This document shows, one piece after another, positions 2,770 to 36,578 of a DNA stretch of 64,000 bases. Below the pieces are notes generated by a model. That model had not been told where the DNA came from, ran no database searches, and worked only from the letters and a program-made list of their open reading frames with translations. The DNA lies in IMG/VR virus record IMGVR_UViG_3300012001_000006, positions 1 to 64,000 of that record; one strand, 5' to 3'. The position numbers and the translations under genes were made by a program. Each line of letters opens with the position of its first letter. Position 1 is the stretch's first letter. Source of the stretch: a virus.

Positions 2770-5283
2770 TTATGCTGTTGCCACGTTTTCGCCAAACGAA
2801 ATCGGGCAGCTTCCGGTAGAACAGTCAACGTGTTCTAAGCCAATATCCTCCTGTATAGATCCTTCACTTTTGAGAGCGTTGACGATCAGTTCATATTGAG
2901 CTTTCGTCGTTGGCTCCTCCGGTTGGTACTCGTAGGCGGAGTCGTCGGTTTGCGGCATCACCGAACAGCAGCGGATCGTCGATTGACCAGCAAGCAAGGT
3001 GCGCTTGAAGTCCTCGAAGCTCACGACTTTAGGGTCATACTTCAGCGTGTAGGACACCTGATTGCCCGATTCGCGCAGCGGTGTGACGCCATCTTCAGCG
3101 ACACCGGTGATCCAATACTTCTCCAACAGGCGAAGGTAGTGGTACTGCTCTTCTGGCGTGGCTTCGGCGGCCGTCACCAGCTTGTCGCCCATGCCAAGCG
3201 AACAGATCGTCGGTTGGGTCGGGAAGCCGACAATCGTGGTGCCAGCGTACGTTTGCAGCTTGCGAACCGGATAGCCTTTCGCGCGATACGCGTCAATCAG
3301 CGGGTCATCGTTGCGGAACTGTACCCACCGCAGGAACTCGCGCATCGAAGGCAAGTGCGCGCCCTCGGTCAGCCCGAACAGCTTGGAGATTGTGCCGGCA
3401 GGCACCATAGTCGTGTCGCTATGCGGCACCACTACGCCAAGCAGGCGCGCATAAACCTCTGCCTCGTCCTGTACCGCGCGCTTGAAGCGCGACAGCGTTT
3501 GCCAGAAGTCTGCCGACTTGGCTTCGTCAATCAGATCCTTCCAGCCGTACCCGAATCGCGCCCATGCGTACTCATGCAAGCCAACCAAGGCCACCCCGAT
3601 GCGGTTCGTGCGCTTGACTTCCTTGCTGTACAAGCTGTCCATCAGGTTGGTGCGGATCAGCGCGCGGGTCGCCACACGGAAAGCGTCTTCTGCATCGTCA
3701 TCCGACAGCCTCTGGACTTCAGCCCGCGCTTCGTCCTGTGAAAGTAGCGGGTTGATACGCCAGCTCGGGCCGTCAAGACCCGCCACCGCATGAAACGGCA
3801 CCACGCTGGCGAGTACGCAGTAACCACCAATCGCCGACAGTACGATTTCGCCGCAAGGATTGGTGATGACCTTGTACCTGCACGACTGCCAGGCTTTTGC
3901 CAGCTCGGCGGTCAATGAAAGCGTTTCGGTGTCCAGCTTGTAGCGGGCCGACTCAGCGAAGTTGCCATCGAACAGAACATCAGTACCCTCGTCCACCCAT
4001 GTCAGTTTGTCCACCGTAATCAAGCCAGGCTCGCCGGTGCCGTCTTTGTATGACGCCTCGCAGATCGCGTCGAAGACTGCTTTGGCGTGTGCGGCCAGCT
4101 CCGGTATCTCTCCGAACGTGTCGGTGTAGTCAGTCTTGACCAAATCCCAGAACTCCTGATCCACCGTCACCGAATTGTTCGATGTCCACAGGAAGCCGCC
4201 ACGTTTGACCGCAATGAATTCCAGCACGCTCTTGTCGCGCCAGGTCTTTGTGGACATACGCGCAGCACGTCGGGCGCCACCCACCAGCACACACTCAGCC
4301 GCGTAGTGATCAGCGTACATCGCGCCGCGCCAGGCAGACATGCCTGCTTCACGCAGTCGGGCGATATTGGCGATCGCAGCCATCAATGGTGCGGGGCCAG
4401 ACGCGGGACGGTTCTGCATTCCCTTGATTGGGGTGCCTTTAGCGCGCACGCCGGAGAAGTCCAGCAGCAGCACGTCTTCGCGGTAAATCTTCTGGAACGC
4501 CATCAACTCCATCTTTTCGAGCGCCTTTGCCCACCCTTCGCGCGAGTCCGGCACTTCAAAAACGTGAATCTTGCGGCTTGAGTACAGGTGTTCGGCGGTG
4601 CGACGATCATGTACGGCGAACAGACCGCTTTGAATATCCTTGTGTGATTGGTCGCAGACGCAGGTGACGATTGGCAGGTTCTTGAAATCCATTCGCATCA
4701 TGGCGTCATCGTACGAGCGACCGACGCCGGAGCCGTTCAGCATCAGGTAGAACGACAGGAAGTTGGCTGCCGCGGTGCTGCAATTCGTGAACACTTCCAT
4801 CGGGCGGGTCGGCTGTGTGTCGTCGCCGTGTTGCAGGTGGCGGCCCGACATCAGGATCGACGCTTGGCGCAGGTGGTGGTGCATTCGCGTGAATTCGAGG
4901 TATTGCTCGGTCGCGTGGATCAAGGTCGTCTTGCCAAGTTGGCGACTGGTGTCGGTCAGCGGGTGCAGCATGGCGTTGCCTTCAGCGACACGCTTCGCCA
5001 CGTCTTCCCACTTTTCGATTTCGATTACGCCAACAACGCTCAGAATCACTTCAACAATCACGTCGTCGCCATACGGCACGTCGTAGTGGTCGATGACCAG
5101 ATTGTTGGACAGACACCACTCAGCGACCTCTTTGTCGAGTGCCATATCGTCGCGGCGTGGAATACTGATGCGCTTGAAGTACAGCGGAACCGGCCGTGTG
5201 ATCTTGCGGTTGATGGTGCGATTTGCGACCGCCTCACCCATGCCTGGCGCATAGACTCTTGCGGGTGTTTCTTGATAGCTCAT
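2770..5283 (-). CDS. nrdJ: ribonucleotide reductase, adenosylcobalamin-type (class II)
   Basis: It reduces ribonucleotides to deoxyribonucleotides. Visible features are FTNCSTAAANF near residue 165 (first redox cysteine), LNGSGVGRSYDD, ECVLVGGARRAARMS, the active-site NPCGEI near residue 500, and a C-terminal DCSTGSCPI with the cysteine pair that re-reduces the active site. NPCGEI, and the absence of any small radical-generating subunit in the window, favour a B12-dependent class II enzyme over class Ia. At 837 residues it is longer than monomeric class II enzymes. The start follows AAGGATATAC, and expression comes from the promoter at 5321-5345. CobS/CobT-like genes elsewhere in the window may be linked through cobalamin. 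Confidence 0.85.
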   Translation of the reverse strand: MSYQETPARVYAPGMGEAVANRTINRKITRPVPLYFKRISIPRRDDMALDKEVAEWCLSNNLVIDHYDVPYGDDVIVEVILSVVGVIEIEKWEDVAKRVAEGNAMLHPLTDTSRQLGKTTLIHATEQYLEFTRMHHHLRQASILMSGRHLQHGDDTQPTRPMEVFTNCSTAAANFLSFYLMLNGSGVGRSYDDAMMRMDFKNLPIVTCVCDQSHKDIQSGLFAVHDRRTAEHLYSSRKIHVFEVPDSREGWAKALEKMELMAFQKIYREDVLLLDFSGVRAKGTPIKGMQNRPASGPAPLMAAIANIARLREAGMSAWRGAMYADHYAAECVLVGGARRAARMSTKTWRDKSVLEFIAVKRGGFLWTSNNSVTVDQEFWDLVKTDYTDTFGEIPELAAHAKAVFDAICEASYKDGTGEPGLITVDKLTWVDEGTDVLFDGNFAESARYKLDTETLSLTAELAKAWQSCRYKVITNPCGEIVLSAIGGYCVLASVVPFHAVAGLDGPSWRINPLLSQDEARAEVQRLSDDDAEDAFRVATRALIRTNLMDSLYSKEVKRTNRIGVALVGLHEYAWARFGYGWKDLIDEAKSADFWQTLSRFKRAVQDEAEVYARLLGVVVPHSDTTMVPAGTISKLFGLTEGAHLPSMREFLRWVQFRNDDPLIDAYRAKGYPVRKLQTYAGTTIVGFPTQPTICSLGMGDKLVTAAEATPEEQYHYLRLLEKYWITGVAEDGVTPLRESGNQVSYTLKYDPKVVSFEDFKRTLLAGQSTIRCCSVMPQTDDSAYEYQPEEPTTKAQYELIVNALKSEGSIQEDIGLEHVDCSTGSCPISFGENVATA

Positions 5284-17738: not shown

Positions 17739-20700
17739 TCAGCTCAAAATCTCACTAACTTTTTCGAACACCGCCATCAACACCTCACCCTTCGTTGGAT
17801 CGAACGTAATCTGCTGCGCGTTCAAGCCGCACACGATCGAGGCGTCGAGCTTCGGGTCGTAGATGACCTTGCCCGCCAACTCGGCCGTGCCGCCCTTCAA
17901 CCCTGGCACGAAATGCTTGATTGCGGCCGAGCCAAGCGCGACGATGATTGCCGGCTTGATCAGTTCAATCTCGCGCTCAAGGTACTTCGCGCAGCCATTG
18001 ATCTGTGCGTTGGTCAGAAACTTCTCAGACTTTTTGGCCTTGACCAGCGTCGTGTAATAACCGTCTGCCGGTAGCAGGCCCGCGTCTTTGATCGCTTGCT
18101 TGATGTAACCCGCAGCGTCGCCCTCCAACAGCTTGCCGACCTTCTCTTCCTGCCACGACGGACAGTCCGAGACAACCATGAATTTGACCGTACTCTTCAT
18201 CCTCACGGTCGGGTGTGGCTGATCGTGCAGGTCGCAGCCGGTGCAGGTTCGATAGTCCTGAACGACGTGAATGATCTTGGCGCGCAAGAACTTCTCCGTC
18301 ACGTCGGTCTGGCGATCTGCTTTCACCGAGTCCACGATCAGACCAGGCAGAAGCTCCATCTGGTCTTTGCGGCGGTCAGGGTGACGCGCAGCCTTCTCTG
18401 TCGAATCGATCGCCGCGTATGCGCCAACCAGCCCTAAGTTATCGACCACCCGCGCATTGACCTTGGAACCCTTTTGCGCTGCCGACGTTCTGAACTCCTC
18501 GATAGTATCGAAGCGACCCTTGACGGCACCCCATACCGGCTTGCCTTTTGCGTCAAAAGTCAGTTCCCGCGCAGCCTCGCGCAGTTCGACGATGCGCTTG
18601 GCGGCGTTGTCCGAGCAGCCTTTCATCTTCGAGAATGGCATCAGCAGGTGCTTGTTGTCCGGTATCGTGAAATACTCGGTGGACTTGTTGATGTCAGGCG
18701 GCAGCAACTCGATGCCGTAGCCCCTGGCGTCATTGACCAAGCTCGTCAGTTTGTCGTCGCCAACCACCGACAGACAAGCGGCGAAGTATTCAGCGGGATA
18801 GCGCACCCGCACCCACATCGTCCAATAGCTGATGACCGAGTATTCAACGGCGTGCGACTTGTTGAAGCCGTAACCGGCGAAGGCTTCGATCTTATCGAAT
18901 AGCTCACCCGACTCGTATGCCGCCATGCCCGACTTGCTCAAGCACCCGTCGATCCATTGTTGACGCATCGACGCCATCTTGTCTTTGTCCTTCTTACCCA
19001 TCGCCTTACGCAAGTGATCTGCTTCGGTGCGGGTAAAGCCGGCAAGGTCGACCGCCAGTTGCATGACCTGTTCCTGGTACACGATGACGCTGTACGTTGG
19101 ACTCAGCGACGCCTCCATGTTCGGATGCTCGTAATACGGCACCTTCGTACCCTGCTTGATCTGCACGAAGTCAGCCATCAGGCCCGACTCCATTGGCCCT
19201 GGACGGTACAGTGCGGTCGCCGCGGTGATGTCCTCGAACGTCAGCAAGCCACCCATCGCGAGGTCGCGCAGCAACTTTTTCATGCCTGGCGATTCGAACT
19301 GAAACACGCCCGTCGTGTCGCCACGCCCGAACGATTCCATGATGTCGGTCTCTTCGAGCGGCAGATCGATGTAGCTGAACGCGTAACCGTGCCGGTCTTT
19401 GATGTAGCGGCGGGCCAGCTCAAGCACATCGAGCGTGGACAGGCCCAAGATATCCATCTTGACCAGCCCGAAGTCCTCGACGACGCGCTTGTCCCAACAG
19501 ACCACCGGCACGCCATCATCGCTCTCGCGGGTCTCGACAACGGCACGGTTGATCAGCGGCTCACCGGCGACCACGACACCTGCGGCGTGCTTACCGAACG
19601 AGCGCATGACCCCTTCCAGCTTCAGGGCGTGGCCCCAAATGTCTTCGTGCGTATTCTTGAACTTCTCCAGCTCCGGTACGGCTCTGGCTGCGTCGGTCAA
19701 CGAGCAGGACTGACCGTGTTCTTTCGGCACCAGCTTGGTCGCCATCAGATCCAGGTTCGACAAGTCATGCACCCGACCGGCGTCACGCAGGGCAGATGCC
19801 GACGCCAACGTCGAGAAGTTGCTGATACCCGCTACGCGATCGGCGCCATACTTGCCCGCCAGATAGCCGACGACCATGTGGCGCTTCGAACTCATGAAGT
19901 CAAGATCGGCGTCAGGTAAGTCGAGGCGGTCAGGGTTGATGAACCGCTCGAACAGGAGGTTGAAGCGGATTGGATCGACATCGGTGATGCCGAGCAGGTA
20001 CGCAACCAGTGAGCCGCCGACCGAACCGCGTCCAGGGCCGACGATGATTTCGTTCTGCTTGGCCCAGACGACCAGATCCTCAACCAGCAAGAAGTAGCCG
20101 GCGAATCCCATCTTTTTCAGGACGCTTAGTTCGAACGCCAGACGTGCGCGGTATGCTGGCAACTCTGTCGCGGTCGGCATGTGACCGAGTACCGGCTGCA
20201 CGAAGCGGCGCTTCCAACCCTCGATGCATTTCTTACCGAGCGTTTCGAACTCGTTGACCGCCATGACCGGCAGCGAGACGGGCATTTTCTTGAACTCGTA
20301 CTCGCACAGGTTCGCCAGCTTTTCGATGCCGCCCATCGCTGTGCGCCACATCATTGGCTCGTTGACGCCGTTCCATTGCTTGACGCGGGCCGCAGCGCCG
20401 GTGACTCGACGCGCCAGATCAATCGGCGGACGAAAGCCAAAATCCTTGACGTGCTGCTTGACGCGGAACGTGGTGGACATCTTCGATTGCGACGTGATGA
20501 CACCGAGAACGTCCAAGGTGGACGCATCAGCGTCGTCGCGGTACAGGAATGGGTAAGTGGCGACTGTCGCATAGCCACCCTTCGCCGCCTCGATCGCTTT
20601 CGCATTCAGGGTGTCAAACAGCGGCGTGTCGATCGGCACCAGCTCCACGAAGGTCGGGAATTTCTCCGCCAGGTCTTCGAGAATCCCTTTTGCCTCTTTG

Positions 20701-21152
20701 TGGTGAAACAACCCGTTAAAGTCGCCGGTCGATACCGCAACGCCCTCCAGCCCCATTACGTCCTGCCAGCCGCAGCGCGAATGGTAATAGAAGTATTCCT
20801 TCGAGTTCGCTTTCGACAGCAGCTTCAACAAGGATGAAATGCCGGCGTCGTTGATGGCGTAGACCTTGATCGTCACCATCTGATTCGGCACTTCCTTGAT
20901 GCCGCTTGCCTTCGCCGGCTTGTGATAGGTCGGGTCGTCATAGACGCGCAGCCGGCAGCCGATGATCGACTTCAGGCCCGCCTTCTTGGCGCGGCTGGCG
21001 AAGTCAACCATGTTGTGAATGGACATCGAGTCGCACAGCGCGACCGATTCGTAGCCATGCTTTTTGGCCTCCTCAATTATGTGATCGACTTGCAGTAGTG
21101 ATTGACCGATGGAAAAATCAGACATCACATTGAGCGCATGATTGATATTCAT
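17739..21152 (-). CDS. dnaE: DNA polymerase III alpha fused to a UDG-like domain
   Basis: C-family replicative DNA polymerase. Residues 1-70 are a PHP domain with altered metal residues (NVMSDFS in place of HxHS). Palm motifs are GPGRGSVGGSLVAYLLG, LPDADLDF (two catalytic Asp) and LVKMDILGL (third). The fingers include GVFQFESPGMKKLL, and the helix-hairpin-helix region is GYGFNKSHAVEYSVISYW. The last 200 residues are a family-4-like uracil-DNA-glycosylase fold: CTGCDLHDQ, VVSDCPSWQEEKVGKLL, YYTTLVKAKKSEKF and NGCAKYLEREIELIKP. GEAPG is replaced by SDCPS, so glycosylase activity is doubtful. AGGAG precedes the start. Confidence 0.92.
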   Translation of the reverse strand: MNINHALNVMSDFSIGQSLLQVDHIIEEAKKHGYESVALCDSMSIHNMVDFASRAKKAGLKSIIGCRLRVYDDPTYHKPAKASGIKEVPNQMVTIKVYAINDAGISSLLKLLSKANSKEYFYYHSRCGWQDVMGLEGVAVSTGDFNGLFHHKEAKGILEDLAEKFPTFVELVPIDTPLFDTLNAKAIEAAKGGYATVATYPFLYRDDADASTLDVLGVITSQSKMSTTFRVKQHVKDFGFRPPIDLARRVTGAAARVKQWNGVNEPMMWRTAMGGIEKLANLCEYEFKKMPVSLPVMAVNEFETLGKKCIEGWKRRFVQPVLGHMPTATELPAYRARLAFELSVLKKMGFAGYFLLVEDLVVWAKQNEIIVGPGRGSVGGSLVAYLLGITDVDPIRFNLLFERFINPDRLDLPDADLDFMSSKRHMVVGYLAGKYGADRVAGISNFSTLASASALRDAGRVHDLSNLDLMATKLVPKEHGQSCSLTDAARAVPELEKFKNTHEDIWGHALKLEGVMRSFGKHAAGVVVAGEPLINRAVVETRESDDGVPVVCWDKRVVEDFGLVKMDILGLSTLDVLELARRYIKDRHGYAFSYIDLPLEETDIMESFGRGDTTGVFQFESPGMKKLLRDLAMGGLLTFEDITAATALYRPGPMESGLMADFVQIKQGTKVPYYEHPNMEASLSPTYSVIVYQEQVMQLAVDLAGFTRTEADHLRKAMGKKDKDKMASMRQQWIDGCLSKSGMAAYESGELFDKIEAFAGYGFNKSHAVEYSVISYWTMWVRVRYPAEYFAACLSVVGDDKLTSLVNDARGYGIELLPPDINKSTEYFTIPDNKHLLMPFSKMKGCSDNAAKRIVELREAARELTFDAKGKPVWGAVKGRFDTIEEFRTSAAQKGSKVNARVVDNLGLVGAYAAIDSTEKAARHPDRRKDQMELLPGLIVDSVKADRQTDVTEKFLRAKIIHVVQDYRTCTGCDLHDQPHPTVRMKSTVKFMVVSDCPSWQEEKVGKLLEGDAAGYIKQAIKDAGLLPADGYYTTLVKAKKSEKFLTNAQINGCAKYLEREIELIKPAIIVALGSAAIKHFVPGLKGGTAELAGKVIYDPKLDASIVCGLNAQQITFDPTKGEVLMAVFEKVSEILS

Positions 21153-23146: not shown

Positions 23147-24325
23147 TCAGCCAAAGATGCGCTGAGCAAGGCCGTCACAGACTTCACGGTCGATCCTGGA
23201 CAGCTTGTTGATGAACGACAAGGTAAGACCCTGGCGGAACGACCCGCGCATCACGCCGATGGTGGACGCGAAGATCAAGGTGCGTGGCGAAATCGTGTCG
23301 CTGATCTTGGCGCCGTCGTACGCTTGACGCACCAGACTGGCGAATTCGATCATCTTGTCGGCGTCTTCCTTCACCAGCTTGCAATGGTTCTGGAGAATCT
23401 GCGACTCTGCCTTCTTGTCCATATACTTCTTGTTGATGACCATGCCGAAGCGGTCGTAGTTGGCGCTGTTCTGAATCATGGTTCCCTGATACAGACCAGT
23501 TTCGTCGCCACTACCGTTCGTGTTACCGGTGCAGCAGAAGCGGAAGTTCGCATGTGGCTTGATGATGCGCAGATGACGCGGCGCTTCCTTGATCACCAGC
23601 GACTTGCCTTCCAACACAGCCTGGTAATTCGCCAGCACTGACGGCAGACCGAAGTCGTATTCGTCGGCGATGTACGTCCAGCCGTTCATCATCGCCAAGG
23701 GAAGTGGCCCAAGCTCGAATTCGGTTTGACCGCCCTTGACCGTCCACTGACCGTTGATGTGGCTCTCTTCGGTGTTGACTGTGTGCTGAATGCGAATCGC
23801 AGGGCGGTTCGTCCGAGCGCAGATTTGCGACAGCAGTTCGGACTTGCCGGAACCTTTGTGGCCCCAGACGTAGCAGGGAATGTTGCGCTCGAAGGCGAGG
23901 ATGACGTTCTTCAACTCGTCGATGTCATACACGTAGTTGTCGGACACGTCCGGCACCATGTCTTGCTGGTCGTGCGGCGACATCACCGAGATTGGAATTG
24001 GTTCACCGCGCGCAGACATTGCAGCCTTGACCTTGCCAAGCTCGAACACTTCATGAAGCATTTGCTTGACCATGTGGCCCTTCGGTATCAGCGTGGTCAC
24101 GCTGGCGGCGGTGCCGGACATCTCCATCGTCGTACCGGAGGCTGCGGCAGCAGCGGCTTCGTCGCGCTTCTTGATCGCGGCGATTGCCGGATTCGACAGC
24201 AGAGGCGCGTCGGGAAACTTGGCGACGTACTCTTCGACCGTCATTTCCGGATGCATCTTCTGCAAGTGGAGTTTGATTGAATGCTCTTGCGCGCCGCACA
24301 CTGCACAGGTAATTTTTCCGCTCAT
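23147..24325 (-). CDS. cobS: CobS-like AAA+ ATPase with Ros/MucR zinc finger
   Basis: The ATG at 24325 (MSGKITC) has GGAGAGAACA; an upstream TTG does not. Residues 6-40 form a Ros/MucR-like zinc finger (CAVCGAQEHSIKLHLQKMH then TVEEYVAKFPDAP). The AAA+ core has WGHKGSGKSELL (Walker A, near 160), TYIADEYDFGLP (Walker B, near 235), FRFCCTGNTNGSGDETG (sensor 1) and DRFGMVI. This is the MoxR/CobS type, which pairs with a VWA protein; the partner is the next gene upstream. Cobaltochelatase activity would need CobN, which is not here, so a chaperone-like or remodelling role is as likely. Confidence 0.85.
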   Translation of the reverse strand: MSGKITCAVCGAQEHSIKLHLQKMHPEMTVEEYVAKFPDAPLLSNPAIAAIKKRDEAAAAAASGTTMEMSGTAASVTTLIPKGHMVKQMLHEVFELGKVKAAMSARGEPIPISVMSPHDQQDMVPDVSDNYVYDIDELKNVILAFERNIPCYVWGHKGSGKSELLSQICARTNRPAIRIQHTVNTEESHINGQWTVKGGQTEFELGPLPLAMMNGWTYIADEYDFGLPSVLANYQAVLEGKSLVIKEAPRHLRIIKPHANFRFCCTGNTNGSGDETGLYQGTMIQNSANYDRFGMVINKKYMDKKAESQILQNHCKLVKEDADKMIEFASLVRQAYDGAKISDTISPRTLIFASTIGVMRGSFRQGLTLSFINKLSRIDREVCDGLAQRIFG

Positions 24326-24387
24326 TGTTCTCTCCAATGGTCATACGACCGTAAGTAAATAATTTGTTTTCGCAACAGAACCAATGT

Positions 24388-24426
24388 TACTCACTATTGA
24401 CTGGATTCGCAAGTCAGTAGTGACTT
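24388..24426. promoter_or_regulatory. tandem operators TACTCA-CTAT-TGACTG and AAGTCA-GTAG-TGACTT
   Basis: Two 6-4-6 palindromes (24388-24403 and 24411-24426) with centres 23 bp apart, about two helical turns, between the CobT-like and CobS-like genes. Cooperative binding on one DNA face is plausible. Confidence 0.65.
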
Positions 24427-24445
24427 ATCCTGTCAGGTTGCCTAA

Positions 24446-26596
24446 CTACTTCAAGATCAGGGCGCGAAGTTCCTTCATGACGACGCCAGGCAGGTCTTCC
24501 ACGTTGTTCAACGTCAAGTGTTTCGGGTAGAAACGCCGCACTTCGTCGGACTGGATGCCGATACCGATCACGTTGACACCGGCCCTTGTGATGTCCGCGA
24601 TCGTTTTCTTCAGGTGCGGCGCCAGGGTATGTGTTTCGCCGGCCGCGTGTGGGGCGCCATCCGACAGCACCATCATGATCTTGCCTGTCTCGCGACGATT
24701 CATCAGGCGGCGGGCCGCAATCTCGACGCACTCGCCATCGACGTTGTTGTGCAAGATGTTCGAGTTGGGCAGCCAACCGAACCGCGCCTTCACGTCCGTC
24801 GTCATGCGCTCGTCGAAACCTTTCAGAATTGGCATATAGAGCGCTTCGACGCGGCTGAATCTGCGACCGAGTTTGGCGGTCTCGGCCGACAGCGTGGCGT
24901 GATCAGCGCAGCCTTCGCCGGTCGTGAAGCAAATCACTTCGCACTTGATGCCAATCCGCTCCAGTACGCTGGCTAACGCGTACGCCGCCTGGGTCGCGGT
25001 GTCGATCTTTTGACCATCCATCGAGCCGGACGCATCGACCACTAACTCGACCGCCACGTCCTTGCTGGTCGCTTCATGCTTGCGGCGAAACACCCGATCG
25101 TCACCGACTGCAAGGCGTGACAGGTTTGCAGCATGGATGCGACCGCTGCGATGCCCTGCCGAGTACATCGACAGCGAACGGGCCGCGATGGCGCGCTCCA
25201 GGTCTTTCTGAAGTGGCGCAACCATGTGATCGACTTTCGACTGCAAGCGCGTCAGCATGGCAGAGTCGTATTCGCGACCGACCTTCAACGGCTCAACGAC
25301 ATCCTTGTCCTTCGTGTAAATCAGGTAGTCGGATTCTTTCGCCGCATCGCAAGCGGCAGACGAAATCAACGTGGACATGGTTTCGTCAAAGTCGCGCTTA
25401 GTCTCCTTGTCGATCGCCGACCAGTTGATGCCGGCAGCTTTCGTGATGTCCGTTTCTGACTCGGCAGGCTTGCTGGCGCCGTCAGACGCTTCAGGCATAC
25501 CGTCACCTTCTTCATCACCTTCGTCGTCACCGCCACCGCCAGACAGGTCGCCATCTTCTTCGTCAGGCATTGGTTCGTCGTCGCCTTCTTCACCCTCACC
25601 CTCTTCCTCTTCTTCGCCCTCTTCCTCATCGGCTTCAGGGTCAGCTTCGGGGTCAGCTTCATCCTCTTCAGGGTCGGCCGCTGGATCAGCTTCAGGGTCT
25701 TCCTCGTCGGTTGGTGCCGGCGTTGGGTCTGCCTCTGGATCTTCTTCGGGCGGTTCGGTTGCGGCAGGGTCTTTTTCGCCTGGTGTCGGTTCGCCCTCTT
25801 CTTCCTCTTCGTCGTCTTTAGGCTTCGGTTCGGCTTTCGCTTTCTTTGGCTTGGGCGACTTGGCGGGCTTCTCTTTCGACTTCTCACCCTTGCCACCGCC
25901 TTCACCTGCGTCACCCGATGGTGACGGCGGTGTCGGGGCCGGCGGTGCCGGTGGGGCTGGCTTAGCAGCCTTCAGGCGCTTCGTAACCTCTTCGGCGATC
26001 TCAAGGCAGTCACGCGTTGATGTCGCGCCCTCGATGCGATCCGCCAGGTCTTTGATTTGGTCATAGACTGGCGCGATGATGTGCATCTTGTCCTTCATGT
26101 ATTCTTTGAACACTTGCTGACCCGCCATTGCGCGAATCAGCGGCACCATCAAGGCGCCGATCACCGTGTCGGTGTCGCCTTTAGCGACCGCTTCCGCAAC
26201 GCGTGGCGTGGTGTATTTGTCGAGGAAGAACTTCCCCGTATTGGCAAGGTTCAGACCAGAACCTTGAAACCGCTGCGCCATGCAACGCTCGATGCGGCTG
26301 TCTTCAATCAGGTTGAGCATTTGGCCCGAACCCGATTTGATCGCTGCATCCATCACGTTGAATTCGGTGAAGAGTATGTGAGCAACTTCGTGATCCAAGA
26401 AACCTTGAATGGCGTCGATCAGTTCGTCGGTAGCGTTATCGGGTAGATACGGCAGGTTGACCAAGAAAGGACGACCAGCGCTGTCAGCTTTCACAAAGGC
26501 GCTTACTCCGCGCTGAGTGACTTGGATTCCCTTACCGGCGAGCATCTGCGTCAATTTGACGACTGATTCACGCATTACATATACACGTTCGTTCAT
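24446..26596 (-). CDS. cobT: CobT-like VWA protein with acidic middle and HExxH motif
   Basis: I place the start at ATG 26596 after GAGGAGATAGAAGCT; earlier ATGs lack a site. Near residue 75 is LDHEVAHILFTEFN, an HExxH zinc-metallopeptidase-like motif. Residues 215-385 are Pro/Lys then extremely Glu/Asp-rich (EEDPEADPTPAPTDEED and similar repeats). The C-terminal VWA domain has the MIDAS motif VVDASGSMDGQ near 500 and MMVLSDGAPH near 640. It forms the usual VWA-plus-AAA+ pair with the CobS-like protein. Role in phage growth is unknown; a link to cobalamin for the reductase, or to protein remodelling, are alternatives. Confidence 0.85.
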   Translation of the reverse strand: MNERVYVMRESVVKLTQMLAGKGIQVTQRGVSAFVKADSAGRPFLVNLPYLPDNATDELIDAIQGFLDHEVAHILFTEFNVMDAAIKSGSGQMLNLIEDSRIERCMAQRFQGSGLNLANTGKFFLDKYTTPRVAEAVAKGDTDTVIGALMVPLIRAMAGQQVFKEYMKDKMHIIAPVYDQIKDLADRIEGATSTRDCLEIAEEVTKRLKAAKPAPPAPPAPTPPSPSGDAGEGGGKGEKSKEKPAKSPKPKKAKAEPKPKDDEEEEEGEPTPGEKDPAATEPPEEDPEADPTPAPTDEEDPEADPAADPEEDEADPEADPEADEEEGEEEEEGEGEEGDDEPMPDEEDGDLSGGGGDDEGDEEGDGMPEASDGASKPAESETDITKAAGINWSAIDKETKRDFDETMSTLISSAACDAAKESDYLIYTKDKDVVEPLKVGREYDSAMLTRLQSKVDHMVAPLQKDLERAIAARSLSMYSAGHRSGRIHAANLSRLAVGDDRVFRRKHEATSKDVAVELVVDASGSMDGQKIDTATQAAYALASVLERIGIKCEVICFTTGEGCADHATLSAETAKLGRRFSRVEALYMPILKGFDERMTTDVKARFGWLPNSNILHNNVDGECVEIAARRLMNRRETGKIMMVLSDGAPHAAGETHTLAPHLKKTIADITRAGVNVIGIGIQSDEVRRFYPKHLTLNNVEDLPGVVMKELRALILK

Positions 26597-26617
26597 AGCT
26601 TCTATCTCCTCGTTCAT

Positions 26618-26633
26618 CACTCAGCATTGAGTG
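26618..26633. promoter_or_regulatory. operator CACTCA-GCAT-TGAGTG
   Basis: A fully symmetric variant palindrome with flanking GTTCA/TGAAC, just upstream of the CobT-like gene's ribosome site. It is the only copy with TGAGTG half-sites on both sides. Confidence 0.5.
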
Positions 26634-27184: not shown

Positions 27185-27625
27185 ATGACTAAAGAACCCA
27201 AAGCCTCAAAGGCGACGAAGAGTCCGACCGTTGCCCAGTATCTTGAAATGCAATTCAATCTCTGCGGCAAGTCGCAGATAGAGATCGCCACCGAATGCGG
27301 CTTTCCAAAGCCAAACATTCTCTCGATGATCAAGCAGGGCAAAACAAAACTACCCATCTCGAAGATCGCCGTAATGGCGAAATCGCTCGGTGTTGATCCG
27401 CTGCATCTGTTCAAATTATGTATGCAGGAATACGAGCCGGCGAATTGGGAGGCAATCCAAGAAACAATCTTGAAGCAGCCCGTCATCACCGCTAACGAGA
27501 TGGAGATCATTCGGGTGATTCGTAAATCAAACGTGATCAATCCGAAGCTGCGCACGAATGAGGAACGCATTCGTTTGCTCGACGTGATTGCGACGTTGAA
27601 GCCTGAAAACGCCACCAACGACTGA
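27185..27625 (+). CDS. XRE-type helix-turn-helix regulator, candidate phage repressor
   Basis: Residues 25-80 form a helix-turn-helix: GKSQIEIATECGFPKPNILSM (split as helices 2 and 3), then QGKTKLPISKIAVMAKSLGV and DPLHLFKL, the usual XRE end. The first 15 residues are Lys/Thr-rich; the C-terminal 55 residues are helical and could dimerise. The ATG at 27185 follows TGGAGA; a longer frame from 27140 has no site. It is the first gene of the plus-strand island, has its own terminator, and is the best candidate to bind the 6-4-6 palindromes, which have the one-turn half-site spacing typical of XRE dimers. That is inference. Confidence 0.8.
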   Translation: MTKEPKASKATKSPTVAQYLEMQFNLCGKSQIEIATECGFPKPNILSMIKQGKTKLPISKIAVMAKSLGVDPLHLFKLCMQEYEPANWEAIQETILKQPVITANEMEIIRVIRKSNVINPKLRTNEERIRLLDVIATLKPENATND

Positions 27626-27644
27626 TCCATTCTCACCCTCAAAA

Positions 27645-27664
27645 AAGGCACCTTCGGGTGCCTT
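27645..27664 (+). terminator. rho-independent terminator after the XRE gene
   Basis: An 8-bp stem AAGGCACC/GGTGCCTT with a TTCG loop and T-runs on both strands, 19 nt after the stop codon. It may work in both directions. Confidence 0.9.
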
Positions 27665-27701
27665 TTTATTGTCGTTTTATTGGACGAGAACAACTATGCT
27701 C

Positions 27702-27730
27702 TTGTGTAACATTGTGCGCAAGTGTATAAA
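27702..27730 (+). promoter_or_regulatory. candidate promoter of the Arc-LuxR pair
   Basis: TTGTGT (27702-27707), a 17-nt spacer and TATAAA (27725-27730). The -10 lies inside the palindrome 27719-27740, so a bound regulator would compete with polymerase. The match is modest and other starts nearer 27834 are possible. Confidence 0.35.
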
Positions 27731-27740
27731 AATACACTTG
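27719..27740. promoter_or_regulatory. 22-bp perfect palindrome, lux-box-like
   Basis: CAAGTGTAT-AAAA-ATACACTTG, a perfect dyad with 9-bp arms. Its central 20 bp have the lux-box layout TGTA-N6-TACA bound by LuxR-type dimers. It lies 94 bp upstream of the Arc-like gene and in the control region of the luxR-like gene. The identification rests on geometry and context. It could instead be the Arc-like protein's operator. Confidence 0.55.
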
Positions 27741-27833
27741 ACAGATTAAGTGCGAAGTGATTCGACTACCTGTAATATATGACTTCATGCTGTCGCTACA
27801 TGGTGAAAATGATATTTTGTACACTATGCGGCT

Positions 27834-28082
27834 ATGAAAAGTCCAAAGTCCGTGCGCCGGCAGGTTACAAATATCATTCCATTTGGCTTGCGTATGCAGC
27901 CCGATCTGAGAAAGTTGATTGAAAAGGCGAGTGAGGATACGGGTCGGTCGCTCAATGCGGAAATTTGCATCCGACTCCACCAAACCTTTATGGCAGACAA
28001 CAAGGCCGATGAATTGCTGGCGGTGGCAAGGGCAATTCATGCGGATATCCAGACCCTAAAGACCGTGCGCGCGCCAAAGTAA
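27834..28082 (+). CDS. Arc-type ribbon-helix-helix DNA-binding protein
   Basis: An 82-residue protein with the Arc pattern: the beta strand NIIPFGLRM at residues 13-21, helix A QPDLRKLIEKASEDTGRS and helix B LNAEICIRLHQTFM. Arc-like proteins bind operators as dimers of dimers and often repress antirepressor or lysogeny genes. The gene precedes the luxR-like gene by 72 bp on the same strand, and the lux-box-like palindrome is upstream. Working guess: it is the regulatory output or partner of the quorum-sensing receptor. No ribosome site is obvious before the ATG. Confidence 0.8.
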   Translation: MKSPKSVRRQVTNIIPFGLRMQPDLRKLIEKASEDTGRSLNAEICIRLHQTFMADNKADELLAVARAIHADIQTLKTVRAPK

Positions 28083-28154
28083 TCCGCTGAGCCTGGCGAG
28101 ACACTCTCAAAACTGCTATTCTCTCGACGACTTCACCATGAAGCTATCGATGGA

Positions 28155-29276
28155 GTGAATCGCATCGCGCGCGTCTCAAAAATAGCAGTAAGCAAAGACG
28201 GCTATATCCGAATGCGGAAAGCTGCATTCAAGAAGTTGGCATTTCAACAGTTGGTGGCGAATGCTGATCCGGAATTGCTTAGTGAATTGATCGGTCAGGC
28301 GATCCCGTCCCGCATTGCAGGTTTTTGCGAATGGGTGAGCGACACAGCGCCGGTGGTCAGCGTCGGTTTTGATTGGCACATCAATGACGAACCAAACCGC
28401 GTCGCCATCTTGTCTAATGCGCCTCGCACCAATCTGATGATGGTCAACGCGAAGGGCTACGATTACGGGCCGCAGCGCACGTCGCGGTTCCTACTAACTT
28501 GGATTAATACCTTTCTCCGCCCGCGATTATCGCCTCTCGCGCGGCAAGATATTGTGTCGAACAGTAGCGGATGGCGCGGCGGCTACCTGTCCATTCTGGA
28601 CAACTTGACGACAGAAATGGCGCTCTACAAACAGGTTGAGCGGCGGGTGCGCGCGCTTGGCTTTGACTACACCGCGTACGGCATTCGGATGGCCTTCCCT
28701 ATCATCCGGCCAACTGTGTGGACGCACAACAATTACCCCGAAGAGTGGCAGCGGCGTTACGCAGAAAAGGATTACGTCGATATCGACCCTACCGTTCAGC
28801 GCGCGATCGAGTCGCCGCTGCCGATGGTTTGGTCAGACGCATTATTTGAGGATCAGCCAGAATTCTGGCGTGATGCGCAAAGGCACGGCTTGCGCTTTGG
28901 GTGGGCGCAGTCGTCAAGGGATGCCACCGGCTCGGTCGGTCTTCTCAGCGTGGCGCGACGCGATGGACCGATCACGGACGCCGAACTGCAAGAAAAGCAG
29001 CACAAGTTGTCGATGCTCGTCCAAATCACACACGCCGGCATGTCCAGGATTATGGCGCCCGCACTTGCGCCAGGGCTGCGCGCGACCGTAACCTCTGGAG
29101 AGCGCGAGATTTTACGCTGGACGGCCGAGGGGAAAACATCAGCCGAGATTGCGAGCATTTTGGAATTACCGGAGCGCACCGTCACGTTTCGACGCACCGC
29201 CGTAATTAGAAAGTTAGGCGCCGTGAATATCACCCAAGCGACGGTGATGGCGTTCTCTCTCGGGATGATTTGCTAG
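28155..29276 (+). CDS. LuxR-type quorum-sensing receptor with RsaM-like N-terminal domain
   Basis: Residues 140-285 are an autoinducer-binding domain with the invariant contacts Trp and Tyr in YPEEWQRRYAEKDYVDIDP (Asp too), the Trp in PMVWSD, and a Gly in GSVGLLSVAR. Residues 310-373 are the LuxR helix-turn-helix (SGEREILRWTAEGKTSAEI, then ERTVTFRRTAVIRKLGAVN). Ordinary receptors are about 240 residues; this one has about 130 extra at the front: DGYIRM, GFCEWVSDTAPVVSVGFDW and TNLMMVNAKGYDYGPQRTS. From memory these resemble RsaM (DUF4902) proteins, which modulate quorum sensing beside luxR/luxI in Burkholderia and Pseudomonas. No luxI is in the window, so it would sense host signal. It starts with GTG. 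Confidence 0.9.
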   Translation: MNRIARVSKIAVSKDGYIRMRKAAFKKLAFQQLVANADPELLSELIGQAIPSRIAGFCEWVSDTAPVVSVGFDWHINDEPNRVAILSNAPRTNLMMVNAKGYDYGPQRTSRFLLTWINTFLRPRLSPLARQDIVSNSSGWRGGYLSILDNLTTEMALYKQVERRVRALGFDYTAYGIRMAFPIIRPTVWTHNNYPEEWQRRYAEKDYVDIDPTVQRAIESPLPMVWSDALFEDQPEFWRDAQRHGLRFGWAQSSRDATGSVGLLSVARRDGPITDAELQEKQHKLSMLVQITHAGMSRIMAPALAPGLRATVTSGEREILRWTAEGKTSAEIASILELPERTVTFRRTAVIRKLGAVNITQATVMAFSLGMIC

Positions 29277-29285
29277 AAAAATAAT

Positions 29286-29301
29286 AAGTCATTGATGACT
29301 A
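29286..29301. promoter_or_regulatory. operator AAGTCA-TTGA-TGACTA
   Basis: A 6-4-6 palindrome 9 bp after the luxR-like stop and about 60 bp before the excisionase-like gene. TATAAG/GATAAT boxes at 29321-29331 could be the -10. It would place the excisionase-like gene under the same regulator as the late and replication genes. Confidence 0.6.
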
Positions 29302-29360
29302 TCATTTGCGCCAATTATTGTATAAGATAATGCCATTACTTACCGAGTGGCGAGATAGCT

Positions 29361-29705
29361 GTGAGAACCCTAGACATTGATGAATGCGCCGAATTCCTGA
29401 AGGTTGATCGCTCGACCGCATTGCGACTGGCCGGCGGTGGCGAGCTACCTGGCGCCAAGATCGGACGCGCGTGGGTGTTCCTGCTGGACGACTTGGTGGA
29501 GTATCTGCGCACACAGGTGCGCTCTCAGGCGCGGCAGCGTCAAGCGGAAGCCGACACCGATGGCGCGCTGAACAAGGCGGTCGTCAATAACGCCTCGTTC
29601 GTGATGTCACCCATGCGCCGGCGGCCGAAGAATGCGGCCCCCGACCTGTCAGGCTACCCTGACCTTACCAGAGCTTCCCCGCCAAATTTGAGCCGCGCAG
29701 GTTAG
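29361..29705 (+). CDS. excisionase-like HTH protein (HTH_17/AlpA type)
   Basis: Starts with GTG. Residues 3-50 form a MerR/excisionase-like winged helix-turn-helix: LDIDECAEFLKVDRSTALRL, then GGELPGAKIGRAWVFLLDD and LVEYLRTQV. Such proteins bend attachment-site DNA and set integrase direction. The C-terminal 60 residues are basic and Pro-rich and look disordered. It converges with the integrase gene, overlapping its end by 41 bases. This supports a role in excision control, though antisense effects between the two transcripts are also possible. Confidence 0.7.
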   Translation: MRTLDIDECAEFLKVDRSTALRLAGGGELPGAKIGRAWVFLLDDLVEYLRTQVRSQARQRQAEADTDGALNKAVVNNASFVMSPMRRRPKNAAPDLSGYPDLTRASPPNLSRAG

Positions 29706-30828
29706 CGTAACGCGCCAACATTCTGGTCGAACTGTGGCCGGTGATCTTCATAATCTCTGTGTCCGACAATGTGGTGCGTTCGAAGAAGCGGGATGTCGCC
29801 TCATGACGCAGATCGTGGAAGGTTAGATCGGGACAGCCCGCCGTCTCGAAGACGCGCGAATACTGCTGCGACATCGCCGCGCTCAATCGCTCCAACGTCT
29901 GCCGCTCCACGCCCCCATCCCACCAAGGGAACAGCCTCTCTTTGTTGAACTTGAAGTCTTCCATGCCGCGCGTGCCGGCGCCCACATGCTCCAGGTACTC
30001 GCGCAGTTTGGCAACCGCGACCGTCGACAACGGCACCTGTCGTTTGCTGCCGTTCTTTGTTTTCTCCAGGAAGATCGTACACAATTCAAAGTTCAGTTGA
30101 TCGAGCGTGAGCGTGTACATTTCCCGCATTCTCATCGCCGTCTCCAGCGCCAGGTCAAACAGCATCTCGATGGCCGCCTGGTAGCGCATCTCAAGCGCCC
30201 TCTGCTTGTCGGCCGACTTCGCGCCCGCCATCACCGCGCGAATCGCCGGCTCTTCCAGCACACCTACGCGGCGATCGCGCGACACGTCTTCGCGCCTGGT
30301 GTGATGTGGGTTGTTCTTGGCCGCCTCGAACGATTCCTTGTCGGTGTATTGCGCGTAGCGTTTTGGCAGTTGACGAATTGGATTGAGCGCGAGCGCGACG
30401 ATGTTTTTATTGGACGCCCAATCGAAGCATCGAGCGAGCGCGCCGACGTGATGTCGAATCGTTGATGGCGCGATATTCAACTCGATCTTCATACTGCGAA
30501 TCCACTTCTCAACCCACACGTAGTTGATCAACTTGATCGGCGTCGCGCCGATTCTGGCATACGCCACGTTGAGCAGGTTCACGTCCGATTGCGGTATCGT
30601 GTTGTGCGCGAGATAGCCGCGAATCACTTCGGCCAAGATGGTGTAGACGGCGGTTCGGGTGTCCAGCTCCGGCGGCACGATGCCGTTATCGAGCAGCGCT
30701 TCGATCTTCGCGATGTAGGCGTCGCCTTCTTCTTCGTTGTTGGTGTAGTAGCGCCACGGCCGCGGCAGCAATTTTGCGCGCTTGACGACGTACTCCCACG
30801 AGTCGCCTTTCTTCCGTTTCATAGCCAT
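29665..30828 (-). CDS. int: tyrosine recombinase (phage integrase)
   Basis: The start is the ATG at 30828 (MAMKRKKGD) 6 nt after GGGAGG; an upstream TTG has none. Catalytic residues are present: Arg in ETAMRMREMYTLTLDQL, Lys in EKTKNGSKRQVPL, HDLRHEATSRFFE (HxxR), GHSSTRMLARYANLR (second His/Trp position and Tyr nucleophile). Residues 90-190 are the core-binding SAM-like domain. It catalyses integration at the tRNA-Cys gene whose 3' half forms the adjacent attP (30997-31046). The N-terminal 60 residues should bind arm sites. Confidence 0.93.
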   Translation of the reverse strand: MAMKRKKGDSWEYVVKRAKLLPRPWRYYTNNEEEGDAYIAKIEALLDNGIVPPELDTRTAVYTILAEVIRGYLAHNTIPQSDVNLLNVAYARIGATPIKLINYVWVEKWIRSMKIELNIAPSTIRHHVGALARCFDWASNKNIVALALNPIRQLPKRYAQYTDKESFEAAKNNPHHTRREDVSRDRRVGVLEEPAIRAVMAGAKSADKQRALEMRYQAAIEMLFDLALETAMRMREMYTLTLDQLNFELCTIFLEKTKNGSKRQVPLSTVAVAKLREYLEHVGAGTRGMEDFKFNKERLFPWWDGGVERQTLERLSAAMSQQYSRVFETAGCPDLTFHDLRHEATSRFFERTTLSDTEIMKITGHSSTRMLARYANLRGSNLAGKLW

Positions 30829-30863
30829 CTTTTTCCTCCCGTTGACGGCCAACAGGCCGAAGT

Positions 30864-35894: not shown

Positions 35895-36578
35895 TTATCG
35901 TGATGCGGCAACACGCCGCGCGTACTGCAATGGGGATTCGTTCGGCAGCATCATTACTACCGGACGTGACGCGATGAGCGTCTTCAATTCGGGTGGCGTC
36001 GCGTTGACGGCCAGCGCAGCGACAACCTTCGGCGCTGGTGCCGGTGCGACAACCTTCGGTGCCAGTGCGGCGGGCGTCTCCGCCAGCTTCTTCATTTCGG
36101 CGTTGATCGCTGCGGCGTAGCTGTCTTCTTCCGGCGCCGGCGTGTCGAACTCGCGATCAGCCGCGGTCGGCGCTTCCTTCGGGGCCGACTTCGTGACGAC
36201 ATCGATCACGCGCCGCTTGCCTGGCATACGCGGGATTTCATCCGGCAGCGTCAAGTTCGTGATGATTTGGTTCTGAATGAACTGGCGCGGAAAGTAGAAC
36301 AGCGCCTCGCCCTTCAACAGCTCCTCGTTACGCATATGAATCGCCGCACAAGTCTTGTTGGCGATCGAAGGGATGCAATCGGCGTGCAGCGGGTGCGTAC
36401 GGCCCGCCTCATGCTCTGAAATCTTCCAGAGACACGACGAGTACGACGGACTGCGCTGCACGATGTCGCAGCCACGCAGATAGAACGCGTTGTCGCCGCC
36501 GGCCGAAGCCGATGGTGGGTAAATTTTCTTCGGCACTTCTGCCGGCTTCACTTCTTCAACTTTTGTTTCATCGGTCAT
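35895..36578 (-). CDS. hypothetical protein with cysteine-rich domain, 227 aa
   Basis: Three ATGs follow CTGGAG; the third (36578) has the best spacing. Residues 35-85 hold four cysteines (RGCDIVQ, YSSCLWK, HADCIPS, NKTCAAIHM) and several histidines, likely a metal-binding fold. Residues 135-200 are Ala/Pro-rich linker (APKVVAPAPAPKVVAALAV). The C-terminus ends in ARRVAASR. It lies just before the ligase gene. Family unknown. Confidence 0.6.
   Translation of the reverse strand: MTDETKVEEVKPAEVPKKIYPPSASAGGDNAFYLRGCDIVQRSPSYSSCLWKISEHEAGRTHPLHADCIPSIANKTCAAIHMRNEELLKGEALFYFPRQFIQNQIITNLTLPDEIPRMPGKRRVIDVVTKSAPKEAPTAADREFDTPAPEEDSYAAAINAEMKKLAETPAALAPKVVAPAPAPKVVAALAVNATPPELKTLIASRPVVMMLPNESPLQYARRVAASR

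Follow-up and report, generated by a model that had tools for sequence, protein, structure and literature searches.

Organisation of the locus

We analysed the first 64,000 bases (henceforth referred to as the window) of an 81,265-base IMG/VR virus record. On the + strand of the window, an XRE-like gene, a terminator, a 22-bp palindrome, arc, luxR, a copy of a phage-wide operator and an HTH_17 gene follow one another in this order, as listed here together with the integrase gene:

27185..27625, + strand: XRE-like HTH regulator, 146 aa, a core gene with a 56% identical orthologue in contig L231 (tblastn)
27642..27667, + strand: intrinsic-terminator-like hairpin 3' of the XRE gene
27719..27740, no strand assigned: palindrome CAAGTGTAT-AAAA-ATACACTTG (GTGTA-N6-TACAC), candidate operator for the RsaM-LuxR receptor
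27834..28082, + strand: Arc-like ribbon-helix-helix protein, 82 aa (Pfam Arc, 3e-6)
28155..29276, + strand: RsaM-LuxR chimera, 373 aa (DUF4902/RsaM 13-120, autoinducer-binding 156-294, GerE 313-366)
29284..29303, no strand assigned: phage-wide operator copy ahead of the HTH_17 gene, probably marking the 3' edge of an insert
29361-29705, + strand: HTH_17 gene
29665-30852, - strand: integrase

The XRE-like protein matches HTH_3 with an E value of 0.012, which falls under the curated cutoff, and its PHROG match is to transcriptional regulators. A relative phage found via CobT (L231) is syntenic with the window across CobT, CobS, xre (56%), HTH_17 (56%) and the integrase (46%), and in this relative xre is followed by HTH_17 within about 145 bp, without arc, luxR or such a dyad. 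Since all three are absent from L231, the palindrome would belong to the cassette DNA and travel with those genes, and on the simpler reading arc and luxR form an insert of ~1.6 kb, at approximately 27642-29280, that carries the palindrome. A single relative fits both insertion in the window and loss in L231, of which insertion is the simpler. The original prediction placed a LuxR-spaced palindrome before an Arc-LuxR gene pair and linked it to lysogeny control, and in this lysogeny region we do find such a palindrome before genes for an Arc-like and an autoinducer-binding LuxR-type protein: both genes lie in what appears to be one inserted cassette, with the XRE-like regulator upstream and the integrase downstream of palindrome, arc and luxR. 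The weakest link of our interpretation is that no second phage carrying arc and rsaM-luxR together was found.

The palindrome and its surroundings

The palindrome (CAAGTGTATAAAAATACACTTG) is the perfect 9-4-9 dyad that had been described at 27719-27740, with perfect 9-bp arms, an AAAA spacer and, within its inner 20 bp, the lux-box dyad core TGTA-N6-TACA. This core occurs only here in the 81,265-base record, and a search of the record that allowed up to 4 mismatches returned no second copy of the palindrome. When the 165 bp between terminator and arc were shuffled with a first-order Markov model, perfect dyads with a spacer of 4 and arms no shorter than 9 bp appeared in 0.1% of shuffles, and in 0.7% when spacers of 0-8 were allowed. 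Because the palindrome is unique in the record and rarely reproduced by shuffling, the observation is confirmed: it is real and moderately beyond chance. The exact 16-base palindrome pattern had 0 matches in 399 genomes from the order of Paraburkholderia. In IMG/VR the pattern was present in 28 stretches, several being copies of one another, and no Arc or LuxR relatives are encoded at these 28 loci.

The palindrome had also been said to overlap a possible -10 element. Such an element does exist (TATAAA at 27725-27730), but it is weak, its sixth position not being T, and a consensus scan listed no + strand promoter at the palindrome; the TTGTGT upstream of it matches a -35 at 3/6 positions. A second candidate overlaps the right arm of the dyad, as judged from sequence and inference:

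27738..27743, + strand: TTGACA hexamer (perfect -35)

If the TTGACA promoter is real, the centre of the dyad would lie near -42.5 to -43.5, which is class II geometry, and transcription would be predicted to start near 27772; there is no good -10 at 16-18 bp past this hexamer.

The receptor is a chimera with an unusual recognition helix

The luxR gene encodes a LuxR-type receptor with autoinducer-binding (PF03472, 1e-36) and GerE (PF00196, 2e-14) domains behind an RsaM/DUF4902 domain (PF16245, 1e-26). Its PDB matches are RhlR and QscR, and its N-terminal part matches RsaM (4o2h, 4e-15). Since no luxI was detected in the 81,265-base record, by a search that found luxI in two positive controls, the receptor is, judged from sequence, a LuxR solo; with its N-terminal RsaM fusion and no luxI nearby it has the features of an RsaM-LuxR chimera (type 8 LuxR solo). 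Residues W198, Y202, D211, P212, W226 and G249, the conserved pocket residues of LuxR-type receptors, are invariant in our alignment. In the AF2 model residues from about 141 to 373 are confident, with 340-353 forming one helix of the GerE domain, and the RsaM part is poor (pLDDT under 50).

The recognition helix, TVTFRRTAVIRK, departs from those of 90 distinct relatives at three positions. At the position of R346 the relatives have H in 87 cases, Y in 3 and R in none; R is found at the position of R347 in 0/90; and the position of A349 is N in 71/90 and A in 2/90. Together with the changed outer base pair of the palindrome (see below), this helix makes an altered DNA specificity of the receptor plausible.

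Close relatives of the receptor were absent from the IMG/VR and GTDB genomes searched with peptide patterns, and an alignment query returned ordinary LuxRs only, plus one locus in a metagenome-assembled gammaproteobacterium (L067:1327-2748). At that locus luxR is closely preceded by an rsaM ORF that shares its strand and reading frame and is separated from it by a stop, an arrangement that is possibly a forerunner of the chimera. A search for RsaM-LuxR fusions in 398 genomes from the Paraburkholderia family gave no open frame longer than 276 aa, and a protein search for the fusion in the order of Paraburkholderia gave LuxR-domain matches only. The start of luxR is uncertain: GTG 28155 comes first, and the first in-frame ATG (28212) would cut into the RsaM domain.

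The palindrome is not a standard lux box

As a reference for lux boxes we used the surroundings of 121 related luxR genes. Here CTG-N10-CAG dyads dominate, with 26 observed against 1.2 expected, and GTG-N10-CAC dyads are not enriched (1 observed against 2.0 expected). The palindrome has GTG-N10-CAC in place of the CTG-N10-CAG outer bases, and with a full lux position weight matrix (PWM) it scores 3.7 bits, which places it only 27th in 81 kb. The earlier description of the palindrome as lux-box-like is therefore retained for the TGTA-N6-TACA spacing and not for the outer CTG/CAG bases, which are GTG/CAC, and a half-canonical box lies 28 bp downstream:

27768..27787, no strand assigned: half-conserved canonical lux box ACCTGTAATATATGACTTCA (10.8 bits, third of 81 kb for the lux PWM)

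This box (P 0.016 in local shuffles) abuts or overlaps the first predicted Arc operator described below. When position 3/18 of the lux PWM was dropped, a choice made after the palindrome had been seen, the box and the palindrome became the top two sites of 81 kb, both in the arc promoter, and two sites of such score were obtained in 0/6000 local shuffles. These results suggest that the palindrome is a real but non-standard control site, of which the receptor is the likeliest user and the Arc-like protein probably is not.

A division of labour in which the half-canonical box serves the receptor and a different protein owns the 22-bp palindrome would explain why the lux PWM built from related boxes gives 10.8 bits to the former and 3.7 to the latter, and the left half of the box (ACCTGTAAT) is identical to that of the ARM81ld box. 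However, the right half (GACTTCA) is poor and doubles as an Arc site, the boxes used to train the PWM score at least 13.0 bits, and the perfect palindrome would then need another owner; we regard this division of labour as unlikely.

Equally unlikely, in our estimate, is that the palindrome is the operator of the phage XRE protein or of a host factor, either LexA (as an SOS-box-like site) or a CRP/FNR-type protein. The core of the palindrome (TGTATAAAAATACA) is one base off TGTATATAAATACA, which lies in an SOS-box-like site of L130 upstream of a umuD-like gene, and GTGTA-N6-TACAC has CRP-like spacing. LexA boxes require CTGT-N8-ACAG, but the outer C/G are G/C in the palindrome (GTGT-N8-ACAC), which is thus not a LexA box. 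The L130 dyad was first taken as a near-identical lux box, a reading rejected in view of its SOS-box-like sequence and its place before the umuD-like gene. For the XRE protein there is a better candidate in TAAGTCA-N4-TGACTTA (22 sites of at least 16 bits in 81 kb), against whose PWM the palindrome scores -25 bits and so does not qualify as a copy, and L231 keeps xre yet is without the palindrome.

The dispersed TAAGTCA-N4-TGACTTA sites, several of which lie just before gene starts, probably serve the XRE-like repressor as operators. The pattern has 14 matches in the window against 0.01 expected, and the sites of the whole record are:

Window: 2723, 5328, 11500, 11964, 24409, 29284, 37099, 37133, 43649, 44527, 45579, 50296, 57146, 63113
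Rest of the record: 64010, 67560, 68595, 71208, 73227, 76645, 78181, 80006

The motif is shared by related contigs (L226-L231 and L233), and by eye, operator variants such as CTCAGTAGTGAC and GTCACTACTGAC flank xre and the promoter of HTH_17 at L231:5970-6740.

That the palindrome is no protein site at all, having arisen by chance or acting as a leader RNA hairpin, we consider very improbable. As RNA it could fold into a 9-bp hairpin of -8.9 kcal/mol; no U-run follows it, so it is not a terminator, and an Rfam search of the region gave no match. A dyad like this arises in 0.1-0.7% of local shuffles, and the window has just one further perfect dyad of its size below 40% G+C, itself one of the phage-wide operator copies.

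Predicted operators of the Arc-like protein

The Arc domain of the 82-aa protein scores 27.4 bits against a cutoff of 20.4, which identifies it as an Arc-like repressor. Its DNA-contact strand lies in PFGLRMQPDL, and P16-L25 are all invariant between the window protein and its homologues. We gathered 79 further loci of Arc homologues, and in 91 non-redundant upstream regions inverted repeats such as CTACA-N3-TGTAG and TACAC-N-GTGTA were strongly over-represented. A PWM of this 13-15-bp palindromic operator, built from 169 sites (RCTACAYNRTGTAGY), peaks 9, 45 and 61-63 bp upstream of the start codon in the homologues and, because the DNA-contact strand is invariant, this motif should transfer to the window protein. 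The sites predicted with it, none with an assigned strand, are:

27782..27796: predicted Arc operator 1, ACTTCATGCTGTCGC (12.7 bits)
27795..27809: predicted Arc operator 2, GCTACATGGTGAAAA (12.4 bits)
27819..27831: degenerate Arc-operator-like site GTACACTATGCGG touching the arc start (weak, score -1.9)
28130..28144: predicted Arc operator immediately 5' of luxR, ACTTCACCATGAAGC (17.1 bits)

The site before luxR is the best of the 81 kb, and operators 1 and 2 rank 4th and 5th; the remaining two of the top five are at 36455 and 65039. By chance 0.9 sites of at least 12.4 bits and none of at least 17 would be expected per 81 kb, and neither the pattern at 27782-27809 nor that at 28130-28144 was reproduced in 4000 local shuffles. 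The degenerate site occupies the place of the operator that homologues conserve 9 bp before the start codon. Taken together, these sites predict, at the level of sequence, that the Arc-like protein controls both itself and luxR. An inverted repeat (ACTGCTATT ... AATAGCAGT) in the region 28112-28193 brackets this Arc operator together with the start of luxR, for which TGCTATTCT is a possible extended -10.

The palindrome as an operator of the Arc-like protein, which it resembles in its half-sites GTGTA and TACAC and in that two abutting Arc operators yield TGTA-N6-TACA through spacing in a few homologous promoters, is the least credible of the readings considered and was rejected, since its halves are without their Arc half-site partners and no 15-bp stretch across it rises above -6 bits, compared with 12.4-17.1 at the three nearby sites.

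A possible two-regulator switch

The dyad and the insertion were computed, as were the protein families, the motif and positions of the Arc operators and the unusual helix; receptor binding to the dyad, the sign of regulation and the effect on lysogeny are what we infer. Our leading interpretation, to which we give somewhat less than even weight, is that the palindrome is a cis-regulatory site brought by the arc/rsaM-luxR cassette, with the RsaM-LuxR receptor as its likeliest binder. Since its recognition helix is unlike those of all sampled relatives, the receptor may prefer GTGTA-N6-TACAC over CTGTA-N6-TACAG. AHL-loaded receptor at 27719-27740 would govern how arc and luxR are transcribed, helped or opposed at the half-canonical box (27768-27787), and possibly as an activator, with TTGACA placed as in a class II promoter. 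The Arc-like protein would repress arc via 27782-27809 and luxR via 28130-28144. Together, the two regulators would make up a switch, next to the genes for the XRE protein and the integrase, through which host AHLs could sway the lysis-lysogeny state. AHL could promote either lysis or lysogeny at this locus, both outcomes having phage precedents (lysis in Apop/ARM81ld, lysogeny in Phaeobacter).

A bolder version, in which the phage took an RsaM-LuxR chimera and changed its specificity (R346/R347/A349) together with a private GTGTA-N6-TACAC operator, the Arc operators being interleaved with those of the receptor, we hold as a minority view, on the doubtful side. If true, it would describe an AHL-listening switch that is insulated from the CTG-type lux boxes of the host.

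Relation to known systems

The Aeromonas linear plasmid phages Apop and phiARM81ld carry XRE-LuxR modules (PMC10432266; PMC6456758), and in Apop and ARM81ld the XRE protein and the AHL-bound LuxR jointly activate their targets and the receptor leads to lysis (PMC10432266). The window resembles them in having a gene for a small DNA-binding partner directly before a phage luxR solo and a lux-spaced dyad upstream. In contrast, the partner in the window is Arc-like (ribbon-helix-helix) and not XRE, the receptor has an N-terminal RsaM domain, and the dyad is GTGTA-N6-TACAC and not CTGTA-N6-TACAG; the window phage also encodes an integrase, and a counter-oriented smORF was not identified in the window. 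Shortly upstream of the XRE-LuxR operons of Aeromonas phages (phiARM81ld and the PhAER phages), in a place equivalent to that of the palindrome, we found the dyad ACCTGTAATTAATTACAGGC or a close variant. A near-perfect lux-box dyad, ACCTGTAAT(T/A)AATTACAGGC, lies ~34 bp before an Aeromonas phage xre-luxR operon at L041:2557-2576, with equivalents in L040, L127 and L128, and makes a good candidate for the site on which XRE and LuxR act jointly. The searched parts of the two Aeromonas papers (PMC10432266; PMC6456758) yielded no box sequence, so the role of the dyad there is likewise one that we infer.

RsaM-LuxR chimeric solos of 'type 8' have been described from the bacterial genomes of two Massilia species, in a report that does not mention phages (PMC10710839). 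Compared by description, the window receptor shares their domain order (RsaM, autoinducer-binding, GerE) and has no luxI nearby; unlike them, it sits in a phage record beside an Arc partner. Prophages of Phaeobacter inhibens carry xre-luxR-luxI systems in which the receptor leads to lysogeny (PMC13345283, preprint); the window likewise pairs LuxR with a second transcription factor, a pairing that controls the prophage decision in Phaeobacter, but the Phaeobacter phages produce AHL themselves, and the search of the window record gave no luxI. The Arc-like repressors with divergent promoters in other temperate phages (L002-L009, L135-L213) have the same DNA-contact strand and the same operator motif; unlike the window, these loci often hold divergent arc-like pairs, and none has a LuxR neighbour.

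RsaM-LuxR chimeras (from the two Massilia species) and phage modules of a partner plus LuxR (from the Aeromonas phages) are thus already known, and no description of an Arc partner, a phage-borne chimera or a GTG-type dyad was found in the literature searched, a scope outside which most subscription journals fell. Partners and targets are known for only a small number of phage quorum-sensing receptors, and the two studied Aeromonas cases have an XRE partner; to these the cassette would contribute a partner of Arc type, a receptor that contains its own RsaM domain and an operator that may have changed together with the recognition helix. RsaM is a quorum-sensing regulator, and since RsaM and LuxR form one chain here, its action on LuxR proteins becomes testable. 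With the cassette one could likewise test whether phages keep their AHL-sensing circuits separate from the lux boxes of their hosts, and the Arc operator map provides concrete sites for testing.

Elsewhere in the window, a CobS/MoxR-like AAA ATPase and a CobT-like VWA protein, common to the related contigs, are encoded at 23147-26620. Judged from their translations alone, a PolIII alpha-like polymerase is encoded at 17739-21152 and a ribonucleotide-reductase-like protein at 2770-5283.
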